From the NCBI GenBank assembly GCA_947502635.1, contig CANNAN010000007.1:186001-250000 (forward strand): a stretch of 64,000 nt of DNA, read 5' to 3'. Shown in pieces: positions 1-31,858 of this stretch. Each line of letters begins with the position of its first letter. Positions within the stretch are counted from its first letter, which is position 1. Under the pieces are notes generated by a model. That model saw only the letters and a list, made by a program, of their open reading frames with translations, searched no databases and had not been told where the DNA came from. The stretch is from an uncultured Flavobacteriaceae bacterium. Lineage in GTDB: Bacteria > Bacteroidota > Bacteroidia > Flavobacteriales > Flavobacteriaceae. Both the position numbers and the translations under genes were made by a program.

Positions 1-738
1 CGTTACTTGTTGTGCAGCATCACTCCATGCGTTTTCAGGATCGTAATGTGTTTCAATCATTAATCCGTCAAAATTTAAATCTAAAGCCGTTTGAGATACA
101 TCAAAAATCATATCTCGTTTACCAGTAATATGCGATGGATCGTTAATTAAAGGAATATCTGGAAATTTATTTTGAAACTCAATAGCTAATTGCCATTCTG
201 GAATGTTTCTATATTTGGTTTTTTGGTAAGTTGAAAAACCTCTATGAATAGCTCCAATATTTTTAACACCCGATTTATATATTCTTTCGATACCACCTAA
301 CCATAAAGATAAATCTGGATTTACTGGATTTTTTATCAATACAGGCTTATCTGTTCCTTGTAAAGCATCTGCAATTTCTTGCATGATGAATGGGCTTACT
401 GTAGAACGTGCTCCAATCCATAATAAATCTACATCATGCTCTAAAGCTAATTTTACATGAGCTGCATTTGCTACTTCTGTACAGATTTTCATTCCTGTTT
501 CTGCTTTTACTTTTTGTAACCATTTTAAACCCAATGCGCCAACACCTTCAAACATTCCTGGTCTTGTTCTTGGTTTCCAAATACCAGCTCTAAAATAGCT
601 AACATCTGTATCTTTTAGCTCATGAGCTATCTTTAATACTTGTTCTTCTGTTTCAGCACTGCAAGGTCCTGCAATAACCAAAGGATGATCTAAATTTAGT
701 GCATCCAACCAGTTTCTCATTTCTTTTTTATTTTCCAT
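1..738 (-). CDS. 3-deoxy-7-phosphoheptulonate synthase (probably fused to chorismate mutase), 3' end cut by window
   Basis: Catalyses condensation of phosphoenolpyruvate and erythrose 4-phosphate, the entry step of the shikimate pathway in the cytoplasm. The frame is open from an ATG at 738 to the window edge (246 codons). The translation shows VIAGPCSAE near residues 20-28, the KPRTRPG loop, and WIGAR, which mark the type I DAHP synthase / KDO8P synthase superfamily. Flavobacterial homologues of this subtype usually carry a C-terminal type II chorismate mutase domain; that part would lie left of the window, so the fusion is inference. It is the last visible gene of the pheA-aminotransferase-tyrA operon, 20 bases after tyrA, and should share the attenuator at 3752-3889. 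The function is secure; the C-terminal half is unseen. Confidence 0.93.
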   Translation of the reverse strand, partial: MENKKEMRNWLDALNLDHPLVIAGPCSAETEEQVLKIAHELKDTDVSYFRAGIWKPRTRPGMFEGVGALGLKWLQKVKAETGMKICTEVANAAHVKLALEHDVDLLWIGARSTVSPFIMQEIADALQGTDKPVLIKNPVNPDLSLWLGGIERIYKSGVKNIGAIHRGFSTYQKTKYRNIPEWQLAIEFQNKFPDIPLINDPSHITGKRDMIFDVSQTALDLNFDGLMIETHYDPENAWSDAAQQVT

Positions 739-758
739 ATTACTTAATATTTAGCTGA

Positions 759-1610
759 CTAAGCTATTCCGTTTAAAATTTGTTTTATATGATTCGTATT
801 TTTCATTTCGTTATAAACTGCTTCAAAATCATCTTTTTCCATGAGTTTTTTAAACTGATTCAGGTTATCGATGTATTCTTTTAAAGTTTCAATGACATTC
901 TCTTTATTTTGTTTAAATATAGGTGTCCACATTTCTGGTGAGCTTTTTGCCAAACGAACTGTAGAAGCAAACCCACTACCCGCCATATCAAAAATATCTC
1001 GTTCATTTTTTTCTTTTTCTATCACCGTTTTCCCCAACATAAATGAACTTATATGTGATAAATGCGACATGTACGCAATGTGCTTATCATGAGCCTCTGG
1101 ATTCATATAACGAATACGCATCCCTATATCCACAAAAAGTTTCAATGCTTTTTCTTGAAGTTTAAATGTTGTTTTTTCAACTTCACAAACAATATTTGTT
1201 TTACCTTTAAACAAACCAGAAATAGCAGCACTAGGCCCCGAGTGTTCGGTTCCAGCAATGGGGTGCATTGCTAAAAAATTTCTACGCTTAGGATGATTTT
1301 CGACAATTTTACAGATATCTACTTTGGTAGATCCAGCATCTACAACCAATCCCGAATCTGAGATCTTATCTAAAATAGTTGGTAACAACTTTACGGTAGC
1401 ATCTACTGGAATGGATATGATAACTAAATCGGCATTACCTATATCATCTAAAGTTGCTTTTTTATCAATTAAATTAAGAGATAAAGCTTCATCTAGTGTA
1501 CTTTGCTTTCTGCTAATACCATGAATAACCACTTCTGGGTCATTTTGCTTTATATCTATAGCAAGACTACCACCTATTAATCCAACGCCTATAATGTATA
1601 TATTTTTCAT
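759..1610 (-). CDS. tyrA: Prephenate dehydrogenase TyrA
   Basis: Oxidatively decarboxylates prephenate to 4-hydroxyphenylpyruvate in tyrosine synthesis. The N-terminus has the dinucleotide-binding loop GVGLIGG (residues 8-14). The motif HPIAGTEHSG (about 116-125) holds the conserved histidine of the prephenate site, and the C-terminal half is the helical dimerisation domain. At 283 residues it matches monofunctional TyrA without a chorismate mutase or ACT domain, so feedback control probably rests on the neighbouring enzymes and the operon leader. Third gene of the aromatic operon, about 110 bases after the aminotransferase, with small inverted repeats in that gap. Confidence 0.93.
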   Translation of the reverse strand: MKNIYIIGVGLIGGSLAIDIKQNDPEVVIHGISRKQSTLDEALSLNLIDKKATLDDIGNADLVIISIPVDATVKLLPTILDKISDSGLVVDAGSTKVDICKIVENHPKRRNFLAMHPIAGTEHSGPSAAISGLFKGKTNIVCEVEKTTFKLQEKALKLFVDIGMRIRYMNPEAHDKHIAYMSHLSHISSFMLGKTVIEKEKNERDIFDMAGSGFASTVRLAKSSPEMWTPIFKQNKENVIETLKEYIDNLNQFKKLMEKDDFEAVYNEMKNTNHIKQILNGIA

Positions 1611-1617
1611 TCCATCT

Positions 1618-1648
1618 GTCTCTTTGAGACATCTTCCCTAAGGGAAGA
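1618..1648. repeat. Two small tandem hairpins in the aminotransferase-tyrA gap
   Basis: A 5-bp stem with a TTT loop (GTCTC/GAGAC, 1618-1630) is followed at once by the palindrome TCTTCCC..GGGAAGA (1632-1648). Neither is followed by a T-run on the minus strand, so they do not look like a terminator. The purine-rich arm resembles the short intergenic palindromes at 24629-24781, so this may be a REP-like element or an mRNA-processing site. The role is inference. Confidence 0.35.
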
Positions 1649-1719
1649 ATTATTAATTACTATTTATATTTCACGGTCTATAATTACTATTTGCTGCTAA
1701 CTAACTGCAAACAGAATAT

Positions 1720-2865
1720 TTATTTTACTCTTGTTATGGCTTCCTCTAAAACATCATTCGATGCACATAAAGAAAATCGGATATAGCCTTCACCCTTACT
1801 CCCAAAAATAGTTCCTGGGGTAATGAATATATGATTGTTTTTAAGTACTAAATCTATAAATGCTTCAGCTTTTTCAGAGGCAGGCAATTTAGCCCAAACA
1901 AAAAGTCCTGTCGCATTTTTATCGTAAGTACAATTTAAAGCGTCTGCTAATTTCCAAACTAAATCGCGACGTTGTTTATAAACACTATTTAAAGTAACAA
2001 ACCACATACTTGAACACCTTAAAGCTTCAATAGCACCCTTTTGAATGCCATAAAACATTCCAGAATCCATGTTACTCTTCACCTTTAAAATATTGTTTAT
2101 ATGCTCACTATTACCAACAACCATTCCTACGCGCCACCCAGACATATTAAAAGTCTTACTCAGCGAATTAAGTTCTAAACAAACATCTTTGGCTCCTGCA
2201 ACACTTAATATGCTTTTTGGCGCATCATTTAATATAAAACTATATGGATTATCGTTAACGATCAAAATATTATGACGTTTAGCAAATGCCACTAATTCTT
2301 CAAACAAATGAGTGTTTGACTGTGCGCCTGTTGGCATATGTGGATAGTTTACCCACATCAATTTCACCCGACTCAAATCTAATCGCTCTAAAGCTTCAAA
2401 ATCTGGCAGCCAATTATTTGCAGCATCTAATTCATAAAAAACAGGTTTTGCGCCTACCAATTTTGTAACAGATTGATAGGTTGGATAGCCTGGATTTGGA
2501 ATTAACACTCCATCACCTTCATTTAAATAGGCCATCGAAATATGCATAATACCTTCTTTACTTCCCATAAGTGGTAAAACTTCTGTGGAAGCACTTAGCG
2601 AAACTGAAAAATGTGCTTTATAAAATTCTGTGATAGCTTCTCTCAATTCAGGTAATCCCTGGTAACTTTGATATTTGTGCGCATTAGGGTCTAACAATCC
2701 TTCCTTTATAGCATCAATAACTCGCTGTGGTGGCTGCAAATCTGGACTACCAATTCCCAAATTGATGATGGGTTTTCCACTGGCTATAAGAAAGTTTACT
2801 TCTCTTAATTTTTTTGAAAAGTAATATTCTTCTACCGTTTGTAATCTGTTAGCTGCTTCAATCAT
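1720..2865 (-). CDS. PLP-dependent class I aminotransferase of the aromatic operon
   Basis: Fold-type I aminotransferase, 381 residues. The PLP lysine is K237 in SLSKTFNMSGWR, with the cofactor-contacting NDNPYSF at 204-210 and NPGYP at 124-128. The closest familiar groups are LL-diaminopimelate aminotransferase-like and aspartate/prephenate aminotransferases. Its place between pheA and tyrA suggests it transaminates phenylpyruvate, 4-hydroxyphenylpyruvate or prephenate; the substrate cannot be read from the sequence. Its ATG overlaps the pheA stop as ATGA, which indicates translational coupling. It lies under the same attenuator as pheA. Confidence 0.88.
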   Translation of the reverse strand: MIEAANRLQTVEEYYFSKKLREVNFLIASGKPIINLGIGSPDLQPPQRVIDAIKEGLLDPNAHKYQSYQGLPELREAITEFYKAHFSVSLSASTEVLPLMGSKEGIMHISMAYLNEGDGVLIPNPGYPTYQSVTKLVGAKPVFYELDAANNWLPDFEALERLDLSRVKLMWVNYPHMPTGAQSNTHLFEELVAFAKRHNILIVNDNPYSFILNDAPKSILSVAGAKDVCLELNSLSKTFNMSGWRVGMVVGNSEHINNILKVKSNMDSGMFYGIQKGAIEALRCSSMWFVTLNSVYKQRRDLVWKLADALNCTYDKNATGLFVWAKLPASEKAEAFIDLVLKNNHIFITPGTIFGSKGEGYIRFSLCASNDVLEEAITRVK

Positions 2866-3689
2866 AATTTAGCATTTTTATATTCACCCAACACTTTAAA
2901 ACCTTCTCCCATAATATCAATTATAGATTTTGATTTTTTAAAATTCACATATTTTTCAAAAGTAACATCAACAAAAAAAGCATACTTCCAAGGTGTTTCA
3001 ATGATTGGTAAGGATTGTATTTTGGTTAAATTCAATTTACAATCGCTCATCACATTAAGAATTGCAGCTAAACTCCCTCGTTTATGGTCGCTTTCAAATT
3101 TAACAGATGCTTTGTTAATCTCGTTTTCAGACACTTCAGAATTTGTTCGTTTTACAATAACAAAACGCGTTTCATTGTGTTTTATAGTCTGAATACTCGT
3201 TGCCAAAACATCTAACTCAAATATATCTGCGGCCATAGTACTCGCAATAGCACCAACACCCTTAAGTTTTTTTTCATGTATTCGTTGAGCAACCTCTGCT
3301 GTATCTTTATCTTCTACCAGTTTAATATGTGGGTACTGCTTAAAAAACTCTTTACACTGCAGCAATGCCATCGGGTGCGAATATACTTCTTCTATATCCT
3401 CTATACGCTGACCTGGTAGCGCCATTAAATTATGCTGAATATCTAAATAATGTTCACCAACAATATGTAAATCATACTTATCAATTAAAGCATAGTTAGG
3501 GATAATCGATCCTACTATAGAGTTTTCTAAAGCCATGATAGCCGCATCACATTCTTTAGTAATTAAAGAGTCTACAACCCTATCGAATGTCAAACATTCA
3601 ATAACATCAACAGGTTTCTCAAAAAATTGCTGTGACACAATATGATGAAAAGATCCTTTTACTCCTTGTATGGCTACTGTTTTAATCAA
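2862..3689 (-). CDS. pheA: Prephenate dehydratase PheA (TTG start)
   Basis: Converts prephenate to phenylpyruvate. The catalytic domain covers about residues 1-180, with ENS at 55-57 and the conserved TRF at 174-176. A C-terminal ACT domain (about 190-275, with GSLAAILNVMSDCKLNLTKIQSLP) is the usual phenylalanine allosteric site. The start is TTG at 3689: an in-frame TGA lies two codons upstream (TGA-ATT-TTG), no ATG is available before the conserved VAIQGVKGSF, and the family normally begins at this point. First structural gene of the operon, 63 bases after the attenuator T-run, so expression should depend on read-through of the terminator at 3752-3780. Confidence 0.92.
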   Translation of the reverse strand: MIKTVAIQGVKGSFHHIVSQQFFEKPVDVIECLTFDRVVDSLITKECDAAIMALENSIVGSIIPNYALIDKYDLHIVGEHYLDIQHNLMALPGQRIEDIEEVYSHPMALLQCKEFFKQYPHIKLVEDKDTAEVAQRIHEKKLKGVGAIASTMAADIFELDVLATSIQTIKHNETRFVIVKRTNSEVSENEINKASVKFESDHKRGSLAAILNVMSDCKLNLTKIQSLPIIETPWKYAFFVDVTFEKYVNFKKSKSIIDIMGEGFKVLGEYKNAKL

Positions 3690-3751
3690 AATTCAGTTTT
3701 ATTTTATTAAGACCTCAATCTTCATTAAGGTTATTCAATTAAACGTTGAAC

Positions 3752-3780
3752 AAAAAAAAGTCCCGATTTTCATCGAGACT
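3752..3780 (-). terminator. Attenuator terminator hairpin of the aromatic amino acid operon
   Basis: On the minus strand AGTCTCGAT (3780-3772) pairs with ATCGGGACT (3767-3759) around a GAAA tetraloop: nine base pairs with one G-U. Seven T follow (3758-3752). It lies 26 bases after the stop of the aromatic leader ORF and before pheA. The segment CGAGAC inside the leader ORF (3824-3819) is complementary to GTCTCG of the first arm, so an alternative antiterminator pairing is available. This is the normal layout of a translation-coupled attenuator. Confidence 0.88.
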
Positions 3781-3805
3781 CATGTTTTAAATTTATATTT
3801 ATAAA

Positions 3806-3889
3806 TTATACATACAACGTCTCGTTCCTCTTGCTAAAAAAGAAATAAAACCAGTTGTTAAAATATGTATAATATACTGTTGTTGTCAT
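3806..3889 (-). CDS. Aromatic leader peptide (attenuator of pheA operon), 27 residues
   Basis: Short ORF from ATG at 3889 to TAA at 3808-3806. Of 27 residues, five are Tyr (6, 7, 9, 15, 26), five are Phe (10, 14, 16, 17, 18) and one is Trp (13), including the run WFYFFF at 13-18. Such enrichment directly upstream of a Phe/Tyr operon is the signature of a leader peptide whose translation senses charged tRNA-Phe and tRNA-Tyr. The antiterminator segment CGAGAC starts 11 bases after the last Phe codon. A ribosome stalled in the FFF run would leave it free, while a ribosome reaching the stop codon would cover it and let the terminator form. The peptide itself probably has no other function. Confidence 0.88.
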   Translation of the reverse strand: MTTTVYYTYFNNWFYFFFSKRNETLYV

Positions 3890-3899
3890 AATTACGCAG

Positions 3900-3928
3900 C
3901 TAAAGTAAATAATATTTTAAGAAATCAA
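3900..3928 (-). promoter_or_regulatory. Probable promoter of the aromatic leader/operon
   Basis: On the minus strand TTG (3928-3926) is followed after 18 bases by TACTTTAG (3907-3900), one mismatch from the Bacteroidota -7 box TANNTTTG at near-normal spacing. Transcription would begin about 3890-3893, only a few bases before the leader ATG at 3889, so the leader may be translated from an almost leaderless RNA. Confidence 0.55.
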
Positions 3929-4009
3929 AATTGTGCTATCAGTTTTTTTTTAATTTTTTAAAAATTTTAAAGATTATACAACAAAACTTCCATAGCATTA
4001 TATAATTAT

Positions 4010-4017
4010 TATTTTTG
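4010..4017 (+). promoter_or_regulatory. Probable -7 box of gldA promoter
   Basis: TATTTTTG matches the Bacteroidota -7 consensus TANNTTTG exactly. The -33 position (about 3988) reads TTC rather than TTG. The predicted start is about ten bases upstream of the gldA ATG. It lies back to back with the aromatic-operon promoter in the same intergenic region. Confidence 0.5.
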
Positions 4018-4034
4018 AATAAATAATTTTAATT

Positions 4035-4931
4035 ATGTCTATTGAAGTAATAGGAATTTCTAAACACTATGGTCAACAAAAAGCTTTAAATAATATTTCG
4101 TTTAAGGTTAACAAACCAGAAGTCGTTGGTTTTTTAGGTCCGAATGGTGCTGGAAAATCTACTATGATGAAAATATTAACCACTTATATTAATCCTAGTG
4201 AGGGTGCCGCCATGGTAAATGGACATGATATAAAAGAGCAAACACAGCGTGTTCAACAAAGTGTTGGGTATTTACCAGAACATAACCCACTATATTTAGA
4301 CATGTTTGTTAAAGAATATTTAAACTTTAACGCTAAAATCTACAAGGTGTCTAAACAACGTATTCATGATGTTATTGAACTTACTGGCTTAACACCCGAA
4401 GTTCATAAAAAAATAGGGCAACTTTCCAAAGGATATCGTCAGCGTGTTGGTTTAGCTAATGCTTTATTGCATGACCCCGATGTTTTGATATTAGATGAAC
4501 CAACTACTGGTTTAGATCCCAACCAATTAGTTGACATTAGAAACCTTATTAAAACAATTGGGGAAACCAAAACGGTATTTCTATCTACACATATTATGCA
4601 AGAAGTTGAAGCTATGTGTGATCGTGTGATTATAATTAATAAAGGAGAAATTGTTGCTGATAAAAAACTAAGCGAATTGCGTGAAGAAGAAGAACAAATC
4701 GTTATTGTAGAATTTGATTATCGCGTTGAAGATGCTTTTTTACTAAAACTTCCAAAAGTAAAAAACGTATCAAATACACACGGTTTTGTTTATGAAATTA
4801 CTTTTAAAACCTCAGAAGATATGCGATCTCATGTATTTGATTTTGCGCATGACAATCAATTAAAAATTTTACAGCTTAATCAAAAAAATGCCAGTTTGGA
4901 ATCTCTTTTTAGAGATTTAACATCAAAATAG
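4035..4931 (+). CDS. gldA: Gliding-motility ABC transporter ATPase GldA
   Basis: Cytoplasmic ATPase subunit of the GldA-GldFG ABC system associated with flavobacterial gliding. It has Walker A GPNGAGKST (35-43), ABC signature LSKGYRQ (130-136), Walker B LILDEP (151-156) and H-loop histidine 187 in STHIMQEVE. The length of 298 residues and the C-terminal extension after residue 230 fit the GldA group of the DrrA/NatA-like ATPases. The permease genes gldF and gldG are not adjacent; the next gene is pta. The single-gene context is normal for gldA in several flavobacteria. The assignment rests on close overall resemblance to GldA; a related NatA-type ATPase is the alternative. Confidence 0.87.
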   Translation: MSIEVIGISKHYGQQKALNNISFKVNKPEVVGFLGPNGAGKSTMMKILTTYINPSEGAAMVNGHDIKEQTQRVQQSVGYLPEHNPLYLDMFVKEYLNFNAKIYKVSKQRIHDVIELTGLTPEVHKKIGQLSKGYRQRVGLANALLHDPDVLILDEPTTGLDPNQLVDIRNLIKTIGETKTVFLSTHIMQEVEAMCDRVIIINKGEIVADKKLSELREEEEQIVIVEFDYRVEDAFLLKLPKVKNVSNTHGFVYEITFKTSEDMRSHVFDFAHDNQLKILQLNQKNASLESLFRDLTSK

Positions 4932-5004
4932 CCTCTCTTTTTATATTGATACGTTTTAAATGAAAAGTATGACAAATATCATCCTTATGATAATAAGTAG
5001 GTGG

Positions 5005-5012
5005 TAATTTTG
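5005..5012 (+). promoter_or_regulatory. Probable -7 box of the pta-ackA promoter
   Basis: TAATTTTG is an exact TANNTTTG match. The predicted transcription start is about 65 bases before the pta ATG. No clear TTG is present at the -33 position, so the support is the single box and its place in the gldA-pta gap. Confidence 0.4.
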
Positions 5013-5083
5013 CGGTAGAATATTTATAAATAAGTATAATTGTCTAGCTTAGAAGTAAGCTGTCTTATAATATATAGAACACT

Positions 5084-7174
5084 ATGAGTAAAGGAATTTA
5101 TGTAGCTACCATTGAGCCTAATAGCGGAAAATCTGTTGTTGTTCTTGGTTTAATGCGTATGCTTTTAGGAAAAACTGCCAAGGTTGGCTATTTTAGACCA
5201 ATCATTGAAGATCTTGAAGCAGGAGAAATGGATAATCATATCAATACAGTGATGTCTCATTTTGAGTTAGATATTAATTATAAGAAAACATTTGCATATA
5301 CAAGAAACCAAGTTCTGGACTTATACAACCAAGGGAAATCTGGTGAAGTTTTAGATGAAATTATTAAAAAATATAAAAATCTCGAAGAACTTTTTGATTT
5401 TGTTTTAGTAGAAGGCACCGACTTCTCTCATGAAAACTCAAGTTTAGAATTAGACATAAATATCTTAATATCTAAAAATCTTGGGCTTCCAGTTATTATA
5501 GTTTCTCAAGGCGACAAAAAAGAACTTAAAGAGATTGTAGATAGTGTTCAATTAGCACATGACACCTTTAAACAAGACGTTGATGTGCTTTCAATAATAA
5601 CAAACAAAGCAAACCCCGATGATCTTTCTACGCTTAAAGCACAATTAAAAGCACGTATAAGTAATGGTACAGATATTACGGTCATACCAAAAATTACTAA
5701 CCTAAGTAGTCCTACTGTAAAAGAAATTTCGAAAGCTTTGGGTGGAGAGGTTCTTTTTGGACAAGACATGCTAAATAATCTAACCGAGCATTTTAGTGTT
5801 GGCGCTATGCAATTACGTAATTATTTAATCCACCTAAAGGAAAATGCATTGGTTATCGCTCCTGGTGATAGAGCCGATATTATTTTAGGCGCTTTACAAG
5901 CTAACATTTCTAAAAATTATCCTAAAATTGCTGGGATTATTTTAACAGGTGGCCTTATTCCTGAAGAACCTATTTTAAAACTTATCGAAGGGCTTTCTAG
6001 TATTGTCCCTCTTATTAGTGTTAAAGGTGGCACCTATCATGTAACCAGTAGCATTGGTAATATTAAGTCTAGAATATATGCTGAAAACACTGAAAAAATA
6101 ACAACATCTATAGCTACTTTCGAAAAACATGTCGATACAGATAAGCTTGCTGAAAGACTCATTACTTTTGAATCTGATGTATTTACACCTAGAATGTTTC
6201 AGTACAATTTATTACAACGCGCTTTAAATAACAAAAAGCATATTGTTTTACCTGAAGGTTATGACGAACGTGTTTTGCGCGCTGCTGCAAAGTTAATTAA
6301 TGCACATGTTGTAGAATTAACATTATTGGGTGAGGAAGATAAAATTAAAGAACTTATTGAAAAATTAGATATTCCTTTAAATACGGATGAGATAAACATC
6401 GTATCTCCTACAAAATCACCTCACTTTGAAGATTACGTAAATACATTTTACGAACTTAGAAAACACAAAAATGTGACTTTACAAATGGCAAAAGACACGA
6501 TGTCTGATGTTTCTTATTTTGGCACCATGATGATTTACAAAGGTCATGCAGATGGCATGGTTTCAGGAGCCGTACATACAACTCAACATACATTACGACC
6601 TGCATTACAATTTATAAAAACAAAACCTGGGGTGAATTTGGTATCATCTATTTTCTTTATGTGTTTAGAAGACCGAATTTCTGTGTTTGGAGATTGTGCT
6701 ATCAATCCAAATCCTAATGCACAACAATTGGCTGAAATAGCTATCTCTTCGGCTAAGACTGCGAAAGAATTTGGTATAGAGCCTAAAATCGCCATGCTTT
6801 CTTATTCATCTGGCGCTTCTGGAAAAGGAGCCGATGTAGAAAAAGTTAGAGAAGCTACCGATATTGTAAAAACACAAACTTCAGATTTAAAAATCGAAGG
6901 TCCTATTCAATATGATGCTGCTGTAGATATGCGTATAGGAAAAACCAAACTACCAGATTCTGAAGTAGCGGGACACGCTAGTGTTTTAATTTTCCCAGAT
7001 TTAAACACGGGCAATAACACCTATAAAGCCGTACAGCGTGAAACAGGAGCATTAGCTATAGGTCCTGTTTTACAAGGGTTAAACAAACCAGTAAACGATC
7101 TTAGTAGAGGTTGTACTGTCGACGATATTTATAGCACTGTTATAATCACAGCTATTCAAGCCCAAAACCAATAA
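5084..7174 (+). CDS. pta: Phosphate acetyltransferase (long, three-domain form)
   Basis: Interconverts acetyl-CoA and acetyl phosphate. The 696 residues form three parts. The N-terminus is a P-loop-like AAA_26 domain starting YVATIEPNSGKS (6-17). A DRTGG domain lies in the middle (about 220-330). The catalytic PTA_PTB domain occupies about 365-690, with PEGYDERVLRAA and SYSSGASGKGADVEKV. This is the long Pta type, whose N-terminal regions usually mediate oligomerisation and metabolite control. ackA starts two bases after its stop, so the two form one operon for acetate production or use. Confidence 0.96.
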   Translation: MSKGIYVATIEPNSGKSVVVLGLMRMLLGKTAKVGYFRPIIEDLEAGEMDNHINTVMSHFELDINYKKTFAYTRNQVLDLYNQGKSGEVLDEIIKKYKNLEELFDFVLVEGTDFSHENSSLELDINILISKNLGLPVIIVSQGDKKELKEIVDSVQLAHDTFKQDVDVLSIITNKANPDDLSTLKAQLKARISNGTDITVIPKITNLSSPTVKEISKALGGEVLFGQDMLNNLTEHFSVGAMQLRNYLIHLKENALVIAPGDRADIILGALQANISKNYPKIAGIILTGGLIPEEPILKLIEGLSSIVPLISVKGGTYHVTSSIGNIKSRIYAENTEKITTSIATFEKHVDTDKLAERLITFESDVFTPRMFQYNLLQRALNNKKHIVLPEGYDERVLRAAAKLINAHVVELTLLGEEDKIKELIEKLDIPLNTDEINIVSPTKSPHFEDYVNTFYELRKHKNVTLQMAKDTMSDVSYFGTMMIYKGHADGMVSGAVHTTQHTLRPALQFIKTKPGVNLVSSIFFMCLEDRISVFGDCAINPNPNAQQLAEIAISSAKTAKEFGIEPKIAMLSYSSGASGKGADVEKVREATDIVKTQTSDLKIEGPIQYDAAVDMRIGKTKLPDSEVAGHASVLIFPDLNTGNNTYKAVQRETGALAIGPVLQGLNKPVNDLSRGCTVDDIYSTVIITAIQAQNQ

Positions 7175-7176
7175 AC

Positions 7177-8364
7177 ATGCAAGTATTAGTTTTAAACTCT
7201 GGGAGTTCCTCAATAAAATTTCAATTATTTTCTATGCCTAAAGAGCATATTTTATGTTCAGGGCAAATTGAACGCATTGGTTTTGATGATGCTATTTTTA
7301 AATTCAAAACTCAAAATAACACTATAGAATTTGAAAGTGCTATTTTAAACCATAAAGATGGATTAAAGTTATTATCAAAACAGCTTTTAGACGAAAACAC
7401 TGGAATTATAAAATCACCTGAAGATATTTCGATTGTTGGTCATAGAGTAGTTCATGGTGGTATTCATTTTAATGAAACTACCGAGATCACAGATGTTGTA
7501 AAAGAAAAAATTAAAGAATTATCATCATTAGCACCATTACACAACCCAGCTAATCTTGAAGGTATTGAAGTGGCAGAAGATATATTTTCAAATGCAAAGC
7601 AGGTCGCCGTTTTTGATACAGCTTTTCATCAATCAATACCTGAACATGCTTATAAATATGCTATTCCTAATAACTTTTTAGAGGACCATCATATTCGTTT
7701 ATATGGTTTTCATGGCACGAGTCATAAATATGTTTCAGAAAAAACTATCGACTATTTAGATAAAAAAGATTCTAAAATCATCACCATTCATTTGGGAAAT
7801 GGGTGTAGTATGACCGCTATTAAAAATGGTAAAAGCATGGATCATTCCTTAGGGTTTTCTCCTGTAAGCGGCTTAATAATGGGAACCCGTAGTGGAGACA
7901 TCGATCCTGCTATCATTTTTCATTTAGCAAACAAATTAGATTTCAGTCTAAACGAAATAAACATGCTCTTACAAAAAAAGAGTGGTATGCTAGGACTTAC
8001 GGGATTTAGTGATTTTAGAGACATTCAAGAACAAGCAGCTCAAGGGAATAAAGCATGTCAATTGGCTTTAGAAATGAATGTGTATCGTATAAAAAAATAT
8101 ATTGGTAGTTACGCTGCTATTTTAAACGGATTAGATGCCATAGTGTTCACTGCTGGTATTGGAGAAAACTCACAATTGATGCGGGCTCTTGTTTCTAAAG
8201 ATTTAGAGTTTTTGGGTATTCATTTAGATATTGAAAAAAACAAAATCAGATCTAAAGGAATACATGCTATTAATACAGATGATTCTAAAGTGAAAATTTT
8301 AGTAATTCCAACGAATGAAGAATTGGAAATAGCCAAACAAGCCGTTCTGTTATTCGAAAATTAA
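7177..8364 (+). CDS. ackA: Acetate kinase
   Basis: Transfers phosphate between acetyl phosphate and ADP, making ATP in overflow metabolism. The ASKHA-fold motifs are all present: LNSGSSSIKFQL at the N-terminus, HRVVHGG, GFHGTSHKYV, the adenosine loop HLGNGCSMTAI, and PVSGLIMGTRSGDIDPAI. At 395 residues it is full length. It is translated directly after pta. Its last 15 bases overlap the end of the convergent gene 8350-9096, and no terminator hairpin is visible in that overlap. Confidence 0.96.
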   Translation: MQVLVLNSGSSSIKFQLFSMPKEHILCSGQIERIGFDDAIFKFKTQNNTIEFESAILNHKDGLKLLSKQLLDENTGIIKSPEDISIVGHRVVHGGIHFNETTEITDVVKEKIKELSSLAPLHNPANLEGIEVAEDIFSNAKQVAVFDTAFHQSIPEHAYKYAIPNNFLEDHHIRLYGFHGTSHKYVSEKTIDYLDKKDSKIITIHLGNGCSMTAIKNGKSMDHSLGFSPVSGLIMGTRSGDIDPAIIFHLANKLDFSLNEINMLLQKKSGMLGLTGFSDFRDIQEQAAQGNKACQLALEMNVYRIKKYIGSYAAILNGLDAIVFTAGIGENSQLMRALVSKDLEFLGIHLDIEKNKIRSKGIHAINTDDSKVKILVIPTNEELEIAKQAVLLFEN

Positions 8365-9096
8365 ACGGCCTCTATACAATTCGCTAACCTCAATTATTGG
8401 TGGACGATTTACAGAAATCACATGACCCGTTCCTGAAATAGTTCCTTTTATTTCTTGTTGCGGGTTTACAATCATATCGTTTGATGCTCTGTTCCATAAT
8501 TGTACCTTTTGAGCGATTAGATTTCTACCTTCAAAACGCGAGATTCCTGCTGCAAAAGTAAGGCTCAAATTTTCTGTTTTGCCCGAAATAAAACAATTAG
8601 ATAAACCATTAAAGACTAATCGAAAAGTATTATTATCTATCTGCAATCTAAAATTGGCTGTTATAAAAGTATCTGGATCACCAAAATCTTCTGAGAGAAT
8701 CGTTAAATTCGGATAAGTTAAAACCCCATCAGAACTTATATCATACTGTGTCGAGCTTCTTATTTCTGTAATATTTGGAGAGGTCACATATATCTTGGTA
8801 ATACCATAATCACGCACATAATTACAATGATTACTATCGGTCAATATTAACTTGTTATCTAAAACAACAGCTTCCACGTCATTCATTAAGTTTTCGCCAG
8901 TTTCAACAACAACTTTTTGCTCTATGCCTTCTTTAATAATGAGTTCTATATTACGGTTCACCAATATTTTATCAAAAGGATCAAGAGCTATTTCCTGTTT
9001 AATTATATCGCCTGATTTTTGAAAACAATCGCCTGTATGCTCACTATCGCAAGCCATTATTAAAAACAAAACAAATATATAAGATATTCTTTTCAT
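8350..9096 (-). CDS. DUF2807-type (putative auto-transporter adhesin head GIN) lipoprotein
   Basis: A 248-residue protein with a lipoprotein signal ending in IMAC at about residue 16, so it should be exported and lipid-anchored. The body is a repetitive beta-strand sequence. The start PFDKILVNRNIELIIKEG and later Ile/Val/Asn-rich strands are the pattern of the head GIN domain (DUF2807), which forms a beta-helix and is common in Bacteroidota. Its molecular role is unknown. It stands alone between convergent ackA and the next minus-strand gene. Confidence 0.75.
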   Translation of the reverse strand: MKRISYIFVLFLIMACDSEHTGDCFQKSGDIIKQEIALDPFDKILVNRNIELIIKEGIEQKVVVETGENLMNDVEAVVLDNKLILTDSNHCNYVRDYGITKIYVTSPNITEIRSSTQYDISSDGVLTYPNLTILSEDFGDPDTFITANFRLQIDNNTFRLVFNGLSNCFISGKTENLSLTFAAGISRFEGRNLIAQKVQLWNRASNDMIVNPQQEIKGTISGTGHVISVNRPPIIEVSELYRGRLIFE

Positions 9097-9202
9097 ATGA
9101 TTCTATTCCTGCTTTTCGTCTTCATTCAAGATAAACTACGACAGAAATCTATTTTAAGTTTTAACTCTTAAGATTCGCACCTTCTCGGAAACGACAATTT
9201 GA

Positions 9203-10303
9203 TTATAATCTGACACCAATCCCAAATTCTACCGCTTCTGCTTTCGCACCATGCGATTTTAGTGTTAACGCTCCAAACCATTTATCACTAAAATAACGTT
9301 TTAAACCTATTCTGAAATACGTACGCCCTTCAAAATCAAATGGGTAATAAACATAATACCCTAACTGCGTCACAAGTGATGTTTTATTAATGAATAACTC
9401 ATGCCCAGCAAAAACACCTACTCTTTTATAATCTTCATTTCCAGAAACGTTTTCTTCAGGAAACGAAACACTTTGATAATAAATAAGTTCTTTTAAAAAT
9501 TTTGAAAAGAAAACATCAGTTCCAAACTGCAAGGCACTTTTTACATTAATACGCTTATCTGCATAGGCAGAAAAAATGTAAAAAGGAAATTGCCCGCTAC
9601 CAACAACATCACTTTCATTAATACCACTTCTAAAAGCAATATTATATTTTATGGGTTCTGTAAACTTTTCTTTCTCAGCATTCTCAAGTGTTGTTATATA
9701 TTCTGGCTCTACGTCATCTAAATTATAAGTCACCCCTACATTTAATACCATAGCATTTATACTTGTATTAGGCGCTTTTACATTAGCATTAGAATAATGA
9801 ATAAATGACAACCCTGCTTGTAAACCAAACCTCTCTATAATACGCTCCTTTTTATAATTAAACATTAAATAAGTACTACTCATTATTTTAGAACCAAAGG
9901 CAACGTTTCTAAAGTTTTTTTCTTTATCAAAAGGATTGGTTGTTAAGCTTAAACCTTGTCCTATTCGCAACATCAAGCTACGCCTTAAAAAATAGAAATT
10001 GTAATGCGCATATAACGAATAATTATTTCCTAAAATATCATTTTTTAGATTTTGATAGGCAAATGATACTCCGTAATCGGGATAATTATAACGTTGTTCC
10101 CAATCCTTAAATCCATAAGTCTTTTTATTCCAACTTAAAATAACACCTTCGGGATGCCCTTTAATTAAATGCAGAATATCATTATTGTGTAACGCTATAT
10201 TACCTTTAAAATAATTAACATCAACATAGGATGTATGTTCCTTTTCTTGTGAGAAAGAAAAGCCGAAAACTGCACAAAAAATACAGACTAGAAATAATTT
10301 CAT
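9203..10303 (-). CDS. PagL-like lipid A deacylase / acyloxyacyl hydrolase family outer-membrane protein
   Basis: Predicted outer-membrane beta-barrel that may remove a 3-O-linked acyl chain from lipid A. The ATG at 10303 is chosen because a clean signal peptide (MKLFLVCIFCAVFGFSFSQ) begins there; a longer frame would overlap metF. The motif FIHYSNANV places H169-x-S171 as in the PagL catalytic HxS-N signature, and the sequence alternates aromatic beta-strands to a C-terminal barrel strand (FGIGVRL). At 366 residues it is much longer than classical PagL (about 150-190), with an extra barrel-like half, so the substrate is uncertain. It lies 38 bases after metF, but the function does not obviously connect. 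Confidence 0.62.
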   Translation of the reverse strand: MKLFLVCIFCAVFGFSFSQEKEHTSYVDVNYFKGNIALHNNDILHLIKGHPEGVILSWNKKTYGFKDWEQRYNYPDYGVSFAYQNLKNDILGNNYSLYAHYNFYFLRRSLMLRIGQGLSLTTNPFDKEKNFRNVAFGSKIMSSTYLMFNYKKERIIERFGLQAGLSFIHYSNANVKAPNTSINAMVLNVGVTYNLDDVEPEYITTLENAEKEKFTEPIKYNIAFRSGINESDVVGSGQFPFYIFSAYADKRINVKSALQFGTDVFFSKFLKELIYYQSVSFPEENVSGNEDYKRVGVFAGHELFINKTSLVTQLGYYVYYPFDFEGRTYFRIGLKRYFSDKWFGALTLKSHGAKAEAVEFGIGVRL

Positions 10304-16568: not shown

Positions 16569-16621
16569 TTTGATGTTTTTTTATCTATATGTCATCAAGA
16601 AAAGTAAAAGAAACACTTTTC

Positions 16622-16728
16622 GTTATCTTTCTAATATTTTTAGGTATTAGTAGAATTTAGCACCTTCTTTAAAGTTAAAGGGTTGCCAAGGCTTCAACGG
16701 GTCTATTCCCTCTACCTTTCTTGATAAC
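16622..16728 (-). ncRNA. SAM-I (S-box) riboswitch upstream of metH operon
   Basis: Read on the minus strand, GTTATCAAGAAAGG (from 16728) opens P1 and the kink-turn strand. GAGGGAATAGACCC and TTGAAGCC form P2 with its pseudoknot loop. GGCAACC and the GGTGCTAAATTC arm form P3. CTAATA/TATTAG forms P4, and GATAAC at 16627-16622 closes P1. All conserved S-box blocks are in order at the usual spacing. A GAAAAGT/ACTTTTC stem follows (16599-16621) with no strong T-run before the metH start, so control may be translational or by a weak terminator. Confidence 0.93.
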
Positions 16729-16754
16729 ACATTAGTACGATTATGAACTGAGGA

Positions 16755-31599: not shown

Positions 31600-31629
31600 C
31601 ATTCACAAAGTTCAATCACTTATTGAAAT

Positions 31630-31748
31630 GTTATCAAGAAAGGCAGAGGGATTAGACCCATTGAAGCCTTAGCAACCCTTTATTCGTAAAGAAGGTGCTA
31701 AATTCTACCCCGTCCTGGACATATTTTCAGGATTCACGGATAGATAAC
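31630..31748 (+). ncRNA. SAM-I (S-box) riboswitch upstream of metY operon
   Basis: GTTATC (31630-31635) and GATAAC (31743-31748) close P1. Between them are CAAGAAAGGCAGAGGGA, TTAGACCC, TTGAAGCC, TTAGCAACC with GGTGCTAAATTC (P3), and CCTGGAC...CAGG (P4), in the S-box order. Downstream, AAATTAC/GTAATTT with a TTTCG loop (31755-31773) precedes TAAATTTTCTTTTT, a weak terminator suitable as expression platform. It should repress metY and the genes behind it when SAM is high. Confidence 0.94.
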
Positions 31749-31858
31749 CAAACGAAATTACTTTCGGTAATTTTAAATTTTCTTTTTAACATTTTTCTAT
31801 ATAAGTACGCTATTCGTAGCATATTTGGCTTAATTTATTAATTCAAAAAATTAGAAAA

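Follow-up and report, generated by a model that had tools for sequence, protein, structure and literature searches.

The pheL-pheA attenuator of E. coli comprises a Phe-rich leader ORF, an intrinsic terminator and an antiterminator pairing in front of the gene for prephenate dehydratase. Although the underlying attenuation principle is textbook knowledge, it is hardly studied in Bacteroidota. The phylum is represented in Rfam by the family RF01692 (Bacteroid-trp), the Bacteroidete tryptophan peptide leader RNA, which is listed in Table 1 of PMC2864571. For B. thetaiotaomicron, a putative attenuator based on Merino's predictions is given in Table 7 of PMC1173090 (2005) before the gene set pheA > hisHb > aroAIbeta-aroQ > tyrA. 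In F. psychrophilum, pheA carries a structured 5' element which also occurs in other Flavobacteriaceae genera and is without Rfam match (PMC9723704, 2021), and, according to the same paragraph of that paper, amino-acid operons show strong clues of attenuation by leader peptides.

We analysed a stretch of 64,000 nucleotides from an uncultured marine Flavobacteriaceae bacterium, presumably a Flavivirga (positions 186,001 to 250,000 of contig CANNAN010000007.1), referred to below as the window, in which the element preceding the pheA operon on the minus strand is, judged from its sequence and that of its relatives, very probably a ribosome-mediated transcription attenuator. It shares with the E. 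coli pheL-pheA system the leader ORF, the terminator and the antiterminator before prephenate dehydratase, but differs from it by Tyr and Trp codons mixed with those for Phe, by a predicted 5' UTR of some 6 nt in which no Shine-Dalgarno sequence can be made out by eye, by tyrA and DAHP synthase genes following on the same strand and, as also from the textbook model, by a protector hairpin that is not conserved in the family. With Bacteroid-trp it has the phylum and the leader-peptide class in common, and the trpE leader of the window genome is itself a match to RF01692 (57.3 bits, cut-off 49); the pheA leader, however, stays below the gathering score and is rich in Phe and Tyr codons. The attenuator of B. 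thetaiotaomicron precedes nearly the same gene set in the same phylum, but concerns one species, originates from an automatic prediction and is of a type unstated in the relevant passages of PMC1173090. The 5' element of F. psychrophilum pheA is probably the same as the one described here; the section of PMC9723704 devoted to it is without anatomy, leader sequence or distribution. These two reports imply that the kind of element, and probably the element itself, had been noticed before, so that the novelty considered possible in a preceding reading of the DNA letters (the sequence-only reading) is restricted to the anatomy, the comparative support and the distribution of the pheA leader, which are new here. 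Among the open-access papers searched, we found no description of a pheA leader peptide, its arms or its spread, and the words pheA and Bacteroidetes are absent from the main text of PMC2965389.

Anatomy of the leader and the genes behind it

The leader ORF extends on the minus strand from 3889 to 3806 and consists of 27 codons plus stop, specifying MTTTVYYTYFNNWFYFFFSKRNETLYV from an ATG start. Aromatic residues (Phe, Tyr, Trp) occupy 11 of the 27 codons, including an FFF run at codons 16–18 (3844–3836), and codons 6–18 (Y Y T Y F N N W F Y F F F; 3836..3874, minus strand) constitute the control codons. Eleven bases past the FFF run starts the motif CGAGAC (region 2; 3824–3819, minus strand), which forms the 5' arm of the antiterminator within the ORF and pairs in a partner-specific manner with its exact complement GTCTCG (region 3; 3779–3774, minus strand). 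Region 3 is common to the antiterminator and the terminator, in whose 5' arm it lies. The terminator hairpin (regions 3:4; 3780–3759, minus strand) is built up by AGTCTCGAT-GAAA-ATCGGGACT with a GAAA loop and a stem of nine pairs, one of them G-U, and is followed by a tract of seven unpaired T (3758–3752, minus strand). A possible protector hairpin (regions 1:2; 3814..3858, minus strand) spanning control codons and region 2 is predicted by folding. The locus thus combines a small ORF enriched in codons for the pathway's end products, an intrinsic terminator, recognized by sequence, between this ORF and the first structural gene, and a mutually exclusive antiterminator formed from a segment within the ORF, as found in leader-peptide attenuators.

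Upstream of the ORF, a promoter of the flavobacterial sigma-A type can be read in the sequence. It is composed of a TTG element at −33 (3928–3926, minus strand), an 18-nt spacer and the −7 box TACTTTAG (3907–3900, minus strand), which ends ten bases before the leader ATG and corresponds to the consensus TAnnTTTG reported at positions −12 to −5 (PMC9723704). Based on this placement of the box, the transcription start is predicted at 3895 on the minus strand, which would leave the leader a 5' UTR of only about 6 nt. A TTG element combined with a −7 box retaining at least 5/6 consensus bases precedes the leader in 72 of the 97 relatives described below, compared with 6.3 per set of mononucleotide shuffles, the real set being free to use any in-frame ATG and the shuffles one. 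The gap between box and ATG amounts to 10 bases in 13/72 and to 16–18 bases in 31/72 cases, which would mean 5' UTRs of about 6 or 12–14 nt. These values are short by comparison with the median of 24 nt given in PMC9723704 and the average of 33 nt given for F. johnsoniae in PMC6847099. All base-level features pointed out in the sequence-only reading, i.e. the 27-codon ORF with 11 aromatic residues and FFF at 16–18, the 9-bp GAAA-loop terminator with seven T (3780–3752), the complementarity of CGAGAC and GTCTCG and the −7/−33 promoter almost on the leader ATG, were recovered base for base on the minus strand of the window.

The leader is followed on the same strand by four genes, which presumably are co-transcribed. 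The first, pheA (2862..3689), is assigned to prephenate dehydratase by PF00800 (E 6.4e-56), and its product also matches the NCBIfam prephenate dehydratase models, although below their cut-offs. A class I/II aminotransferase gene (1720..2865; PF00155, E 5.3e-61) overlaps the end of pheA and precedes tyrA for prephenate dehydrogenase (759..1610; NF006307 above cut-off, PF02153 and PF20463). The last gene, for DAHP synthase (1..738; PF00793, E 2e-37 for window positions 1–750), runs past the window with a frame that stays open to about 344 bases outside it; judged by eye, its tail reads like a chorismate mutase-like segment. Translation of pheA apparently starts at an in-frame TTG at 3689 in the window, and at a TTG in several close genera; other genera have an ATG at a distance of a few bases from the T tract of the terminator.

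Chance alone would rarely generate such a leader. In dinucleotide shuffles of the 330 nt upstream of pheA, an ORF of 15–35 aa with at least 11 aromatic residues at a share of at least 30% occurred 2 times in 2000, and one with at least 8 aromatics 31 times in 2000. The fold of 3749–3900 has a z of −3.69, with 0/200 shuffles as good. A terminator scan of window positions 1–10000 detected four candidates where 4.5 are expected in shuffles, so the terminator taken alone is no evidence; that of the pheA leader is the sole one on the minus strand. As the upstream gene gldA (4035–4931) is located on the opposite strand, the terminator ends no other gene seen.

Distribution and co-variation among relatives

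A search of 120 Flavobacteriaceae genomes yielded 102 with PheA, and the upstream DNA of all 102 was taken. The scan, which picks the most aromatic ORF-terminator pair per genome and has a terminator stem as a requirement, detected an aromatic leader ORF and a terminator in 97/102 of these genomes, nearly all from different genera. Leader and terminator were seen by eye in two further genomes missed by the scan, of which G058 is cut at a contig edge with the start codon outside, while in G041 the stem had probably been extended into the T tract. By scan and by eye, the leader is absent in the remaining three of the 102 (G024, G033 and G045). The genomes of two of these leaderless loci, G033 (L165) and G045 (L193), also gave no hisG match, and G033 in addition no trpE match; loss of the attenuator in these two may go along with reduced amino-acid synthesis.

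The enrichment of aromatic codons is specific to pheA. With a common filter (ORF of 15–35 aa, 30% aromatic, within 420 nt before the gene), ORFs with at least 8 aromatics were obtained in 95/102 pheA but 0/60 hisG/trpE upstream regions, and with at least 7 aromatics in 97/102 versus 1/60. Within 330 nt, the threshold of at least 7 was reached in 96/97 scan-positive regions compared with 20/970 shuffles. A second set of pheA loci, consisting partly of the same species as the 102 genomes, contained a leader with at least 7 aromatics and a terminator in 80/80 cases, including four (L067, L094, L105 and L120) which lacked a terminator under earlier scan criteria and pass under the final ones.

Outside the family, 30 of 39 matching genomes of Bacteroidia were taken and provided 26 loci, three family members and the window's own being left out. 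Judged by reading, 13 of them possess leader and terminator (G131 weakly), four a leader-like ORF but no terminator good enough for the scan (G188 weakly) and nine neither. For the other classes of the phylum, the 29 loci with the best PF00800 scores were taken from 172 matching genomes, a biased and mostly not AT-rich sample; aromatic ORF and terminator occurred together in 0/29 of them, and a weak aromatic ORF alone in 2/29 (G360 and G410). From this pattern we infer that the pheA leader is old in Bacteroidia.

The core of the terminator arm varies among the scan-positive leaders, with GTCTC in 54, GTCCC in 20, GTCCT in 11, ATCCC in four, AACCC in three, GTTCC in two and three further classes in one leader each, and among genera the arm within the ORF changes along with it. 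At base 4 of region 3, for instance, the 82 leaders with a GTC or GCC anchor display an A-T pair in 53, a G-C pair in 28 and a G-U pair in one case. As the helices were picked for their complementarity, the real test of the 2:3 pairing is a permutation of partners, in which real and permuted pairs underwent the same maximisation and whose statistics ignore phylogeny. The best-helix score was 17.88 with the own partner and 14.78 with permuted ones (sd 0.25; maximum of 200 permutations 15.47); when the arm classes were weighted equally, the corresponding values were 18.67 and 14.91 (sd 0.63; maximum of 1000 permutations 16.96). In 93/97 leaders the own arm scored above the mean of foreign arms with a different core. 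The sequence-only reading had named conserved aromatic codons and compensatory changes in both alternative stems as support for its proposal. The former are borne out by the counts given above and the latter by the antiterminator arms; the terminator stem was preset by the scan and, hence, the antiterminator pairing constitutes the only independent test.

Modelled ribosome position, amino acids probably sensed and rival readings

For 93 leaders, a ribosome was positioned at every codon in turn and the RNA 3' of it was folded as far as region 4, which itself was excluded, the footprint edge being assumed 12 nt past the start of the A-site codon and the folds reflecting equilibrium rather than kinetics. 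Four of the 97 leaders (G047, G014, G062 and G127), in which either the best helix was located within the aromatic run or the frame had been picked wrongly, were left out of the stall profile, the no-ribosome fold, the control-region Trp count and the stop-codon coverage, but were kept in the permutation tests. The mean P(2:3) is 0.93–0.97 for stalls 15 to 4 codons before region 2 (0.96–0.97 at 6 to 4), and falls to 0.88 at three, 0.32 at two and 0.04 at one codon before it. Phe and Tyr together occupy position −6 in 93/93, −5 in 93/93 and −4 in 91/93 leaders (277/279 in total), followed by 39/93 at −3, 5/93 at −2 and 1/93 at −1. In these models the end of the aromatic run, therefore, coincides with the last codon at which a stall keeps the antiterminator free, a match that depends on the assumed footprint insofar as shifting its edge by 3 nt shifts the step in P(2:3) by one codon. 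P(2:3) is still high at −17 to −15 (0.87 at −17), where aromatics are few, and the geometry thus fixes the downstream but not the upstream end of the run. A terminating ribosome, whose A site holds the stop codon and which is assumed to protect 18 nt back and 12 nt forward, covers half of region 2 or more in 90/93 leaders. The control codons are, in silico and for this footprint, placed such that a stall would free the arm and a terminating ribosome would cover it, and the stalling geometry suggested for the window by the sequence-only reading is accordingly supported across the 93 leaders.

In the window, P(2:3) is 0.99 at codons 8–18, 0.83 at codon 19 and 0 from codon 20 on. The low values at codons 1–3 (0.02–0.27) are due to the 1:2 hairpin, which has a P of 0.63 there. 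A protector hairpin conserved throughout the family was expected but is not predicted, its P exceeding 0.5 in only 21/93 leaders. When folded with no ribosome, the 93 leaders show a mean P(1:2) of 0.24 and a mean P(2:3) of 0.66, versus 0.63 and 0.08 in the window, and therefore the untranslated state may differ among species; according to these models the leader may, without translation, remain in the off state in Flavivirga, whereas in most relatives it may not.

A stall of the ribosome could also be brought about by the peptide itself, sensing from within the exit tunnel the free amino acids Phe or Tyr. TnaC is such an arrest peptide, which senses Trp and halts the ribosome, and fixed peptide residues are needed for its arrest. 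The second half of the leader peptide, NWFYFFFSKRNETLYV, is indeed little changed among close relatives. Across the family, however, the residues that follow the run are replaced completely (SKRNETLYV, KRGTGLL, TERSGIVM) along with the changes of region 2, F and Y substitute for each other inside the run, and what is constant is the aromatic nature of the residues and their place with respect to region 2. The leader does not qualify as a TnaC-type arrest peptide, given the unconserved residues after the run and the F/Y exchange, and an arrest-peptide switch appears very improbable.

For attenuation by codon-dependent stalling, the composition of the run indicates which amino acids are read. 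In its last four codons the first base is almost invariant (entropy 0–0.26 bits) and the changes, at bases 2 and 3, are F/Y exchanges and synonymous ones. Other amino acids whose codons are a single step from those of Phe, such as Leu, Ser or Cys, do not occur between −6 and −4, where the two residues deviating from F and Y are an I and a Q. The share of Phe is highest close to region 2 (80% at −5); Tyr makes up 48% of position −7 and 35% of −12, and Trp 30% of −9. A Trp codon is present in 68/97 leaders and falls within the control region (−16 to −3) in 65/93. Judged by these codons, the leader most likely senses Phe and Tyr, as the sequence-only reading had supposed, and probably, as a refinement of it, Trp too, unless the UGG codon plays a structural role, as it may. 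A mixture of Phe, Tyr and Trp codons fits a gene set containing tyrA and DAHP synthase.

Further leaders specify other amino acids. In the window genome, hisG is preceded by the HHH leader MNFIQLHHHFHICSQAN (L225, G000:C4 near 266805) and trpE by the WWW leader MNTILNNTWWWSFRNLHS (L226 2040–2163, minus strand), each followed by a terminator seen by eye. In the family, counting leader ORFs at 30 loci each from 49 hisG and 56 trpE genomes, leaders with at least three His were found before hisG in 29/30 and leaders with at least two Trp before trpE in 28/30 cases. The hisG leader L225 gave no Rfam match, and the pheA leaders of the window and 12 relatives reached the gathering score of no Rfam 15 family, RF01692 included; the models without match there presumably comprise Phe-leader and T-box. 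Elsewhere in the window two SAM riboswitches (RF00162) score above the gathering threshold, at 16620–16730 (minus strand) and 31628–31750 (plus strand).

These observations also bear on the view that a riboswitch, a T-box or an RNA-binding protein governs the terminator and the ORF is incidental. A terminator with an alternative pairing would be expected for any attenuator, including these. Yet the lack of a family at gathering score, the residue-specific ORFs (F/Y before pheA, H before hisG and W before trpE) and the end of the aromatic codons where a stalled ribosome would cover region 2 render this view very improbable too. Equally slight is the probability that the ORF encodes a small functional peptide with a terminator ending its own transcript and pheA has a separate promoter, for which the 62 bases between T tract and pheA start in the window would suffice: in many relatives hardly more than a few bases separate the T tract from the start codon of pheA (in G017 the tract is followed by ATATATG), so that a promoter could not be accommodated behind the terminator, and the complementarity of region 2 to the terminator would be left unexplained.

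Proposed mechanism and its implications

Taken together, the conserved leaders, the joint change of the arms, the stall geometry and the His and Trp leaders argue for ribosome-mediated transcription attenuation, for which we propose the following scenario. RNA polymerase would initiate at a point some 6 nt ahead of the leader ATG, and translation of the leader by a ribosome would set in almost immediately. When the aromatic tRNAs (Phe, Tyr and probably Trp) are charged, the ribosome would get to the stop codon and cover region 2, whereupon region 3 could pair with region 4, the terminator would form and transcription would end near 3752. When aromatic tRNA is short, the ribosome would stall in the aromatic run and leave region 2 free to pair with region 3 while region 4 is still to be transcribed; terminator formation would then be blocked and pheA, the aminotransferase gene, tyrA and the DAHP synthase gene would be transcribed. 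More tentatively, and with slightly more doubt than belief, we suggest that the leader operates as a pan-aromatic (Phe, Tyr and Trp) sensor for a gene set including the entry enzyme of the pathway, that in most species it is a minimal two-state device without protector hairpin and that a start without Shine-Dalgarno sequence a few bases from the 5' end allows ribosome loading at a rate sufficient to follow RNA polymerase.

Bacteroidota mRNAs lack Shine-Dalgarno sequences (PMC6847099). Leader-peptide attenuation requires a ribosome that keeps pace with RNA polymerase, and whether this is the case in Bacteroidota is a question which the pheA leader makes directly testable. The comparative set offers natural variants with different arms and aromatic codons, for which the His and Trp leaders can serve as specificity controls. 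An Rfam family and a regulatory annotation for the pheA operons of Bacteroidia would be justified. If the more tentative reading given above is true, the Phe, His and Trp leaders would imply close coupling of transcription and translation as a working principle across Flavobacteriaceae which, for the pheA leader, would extend across much of Bacteroidia.
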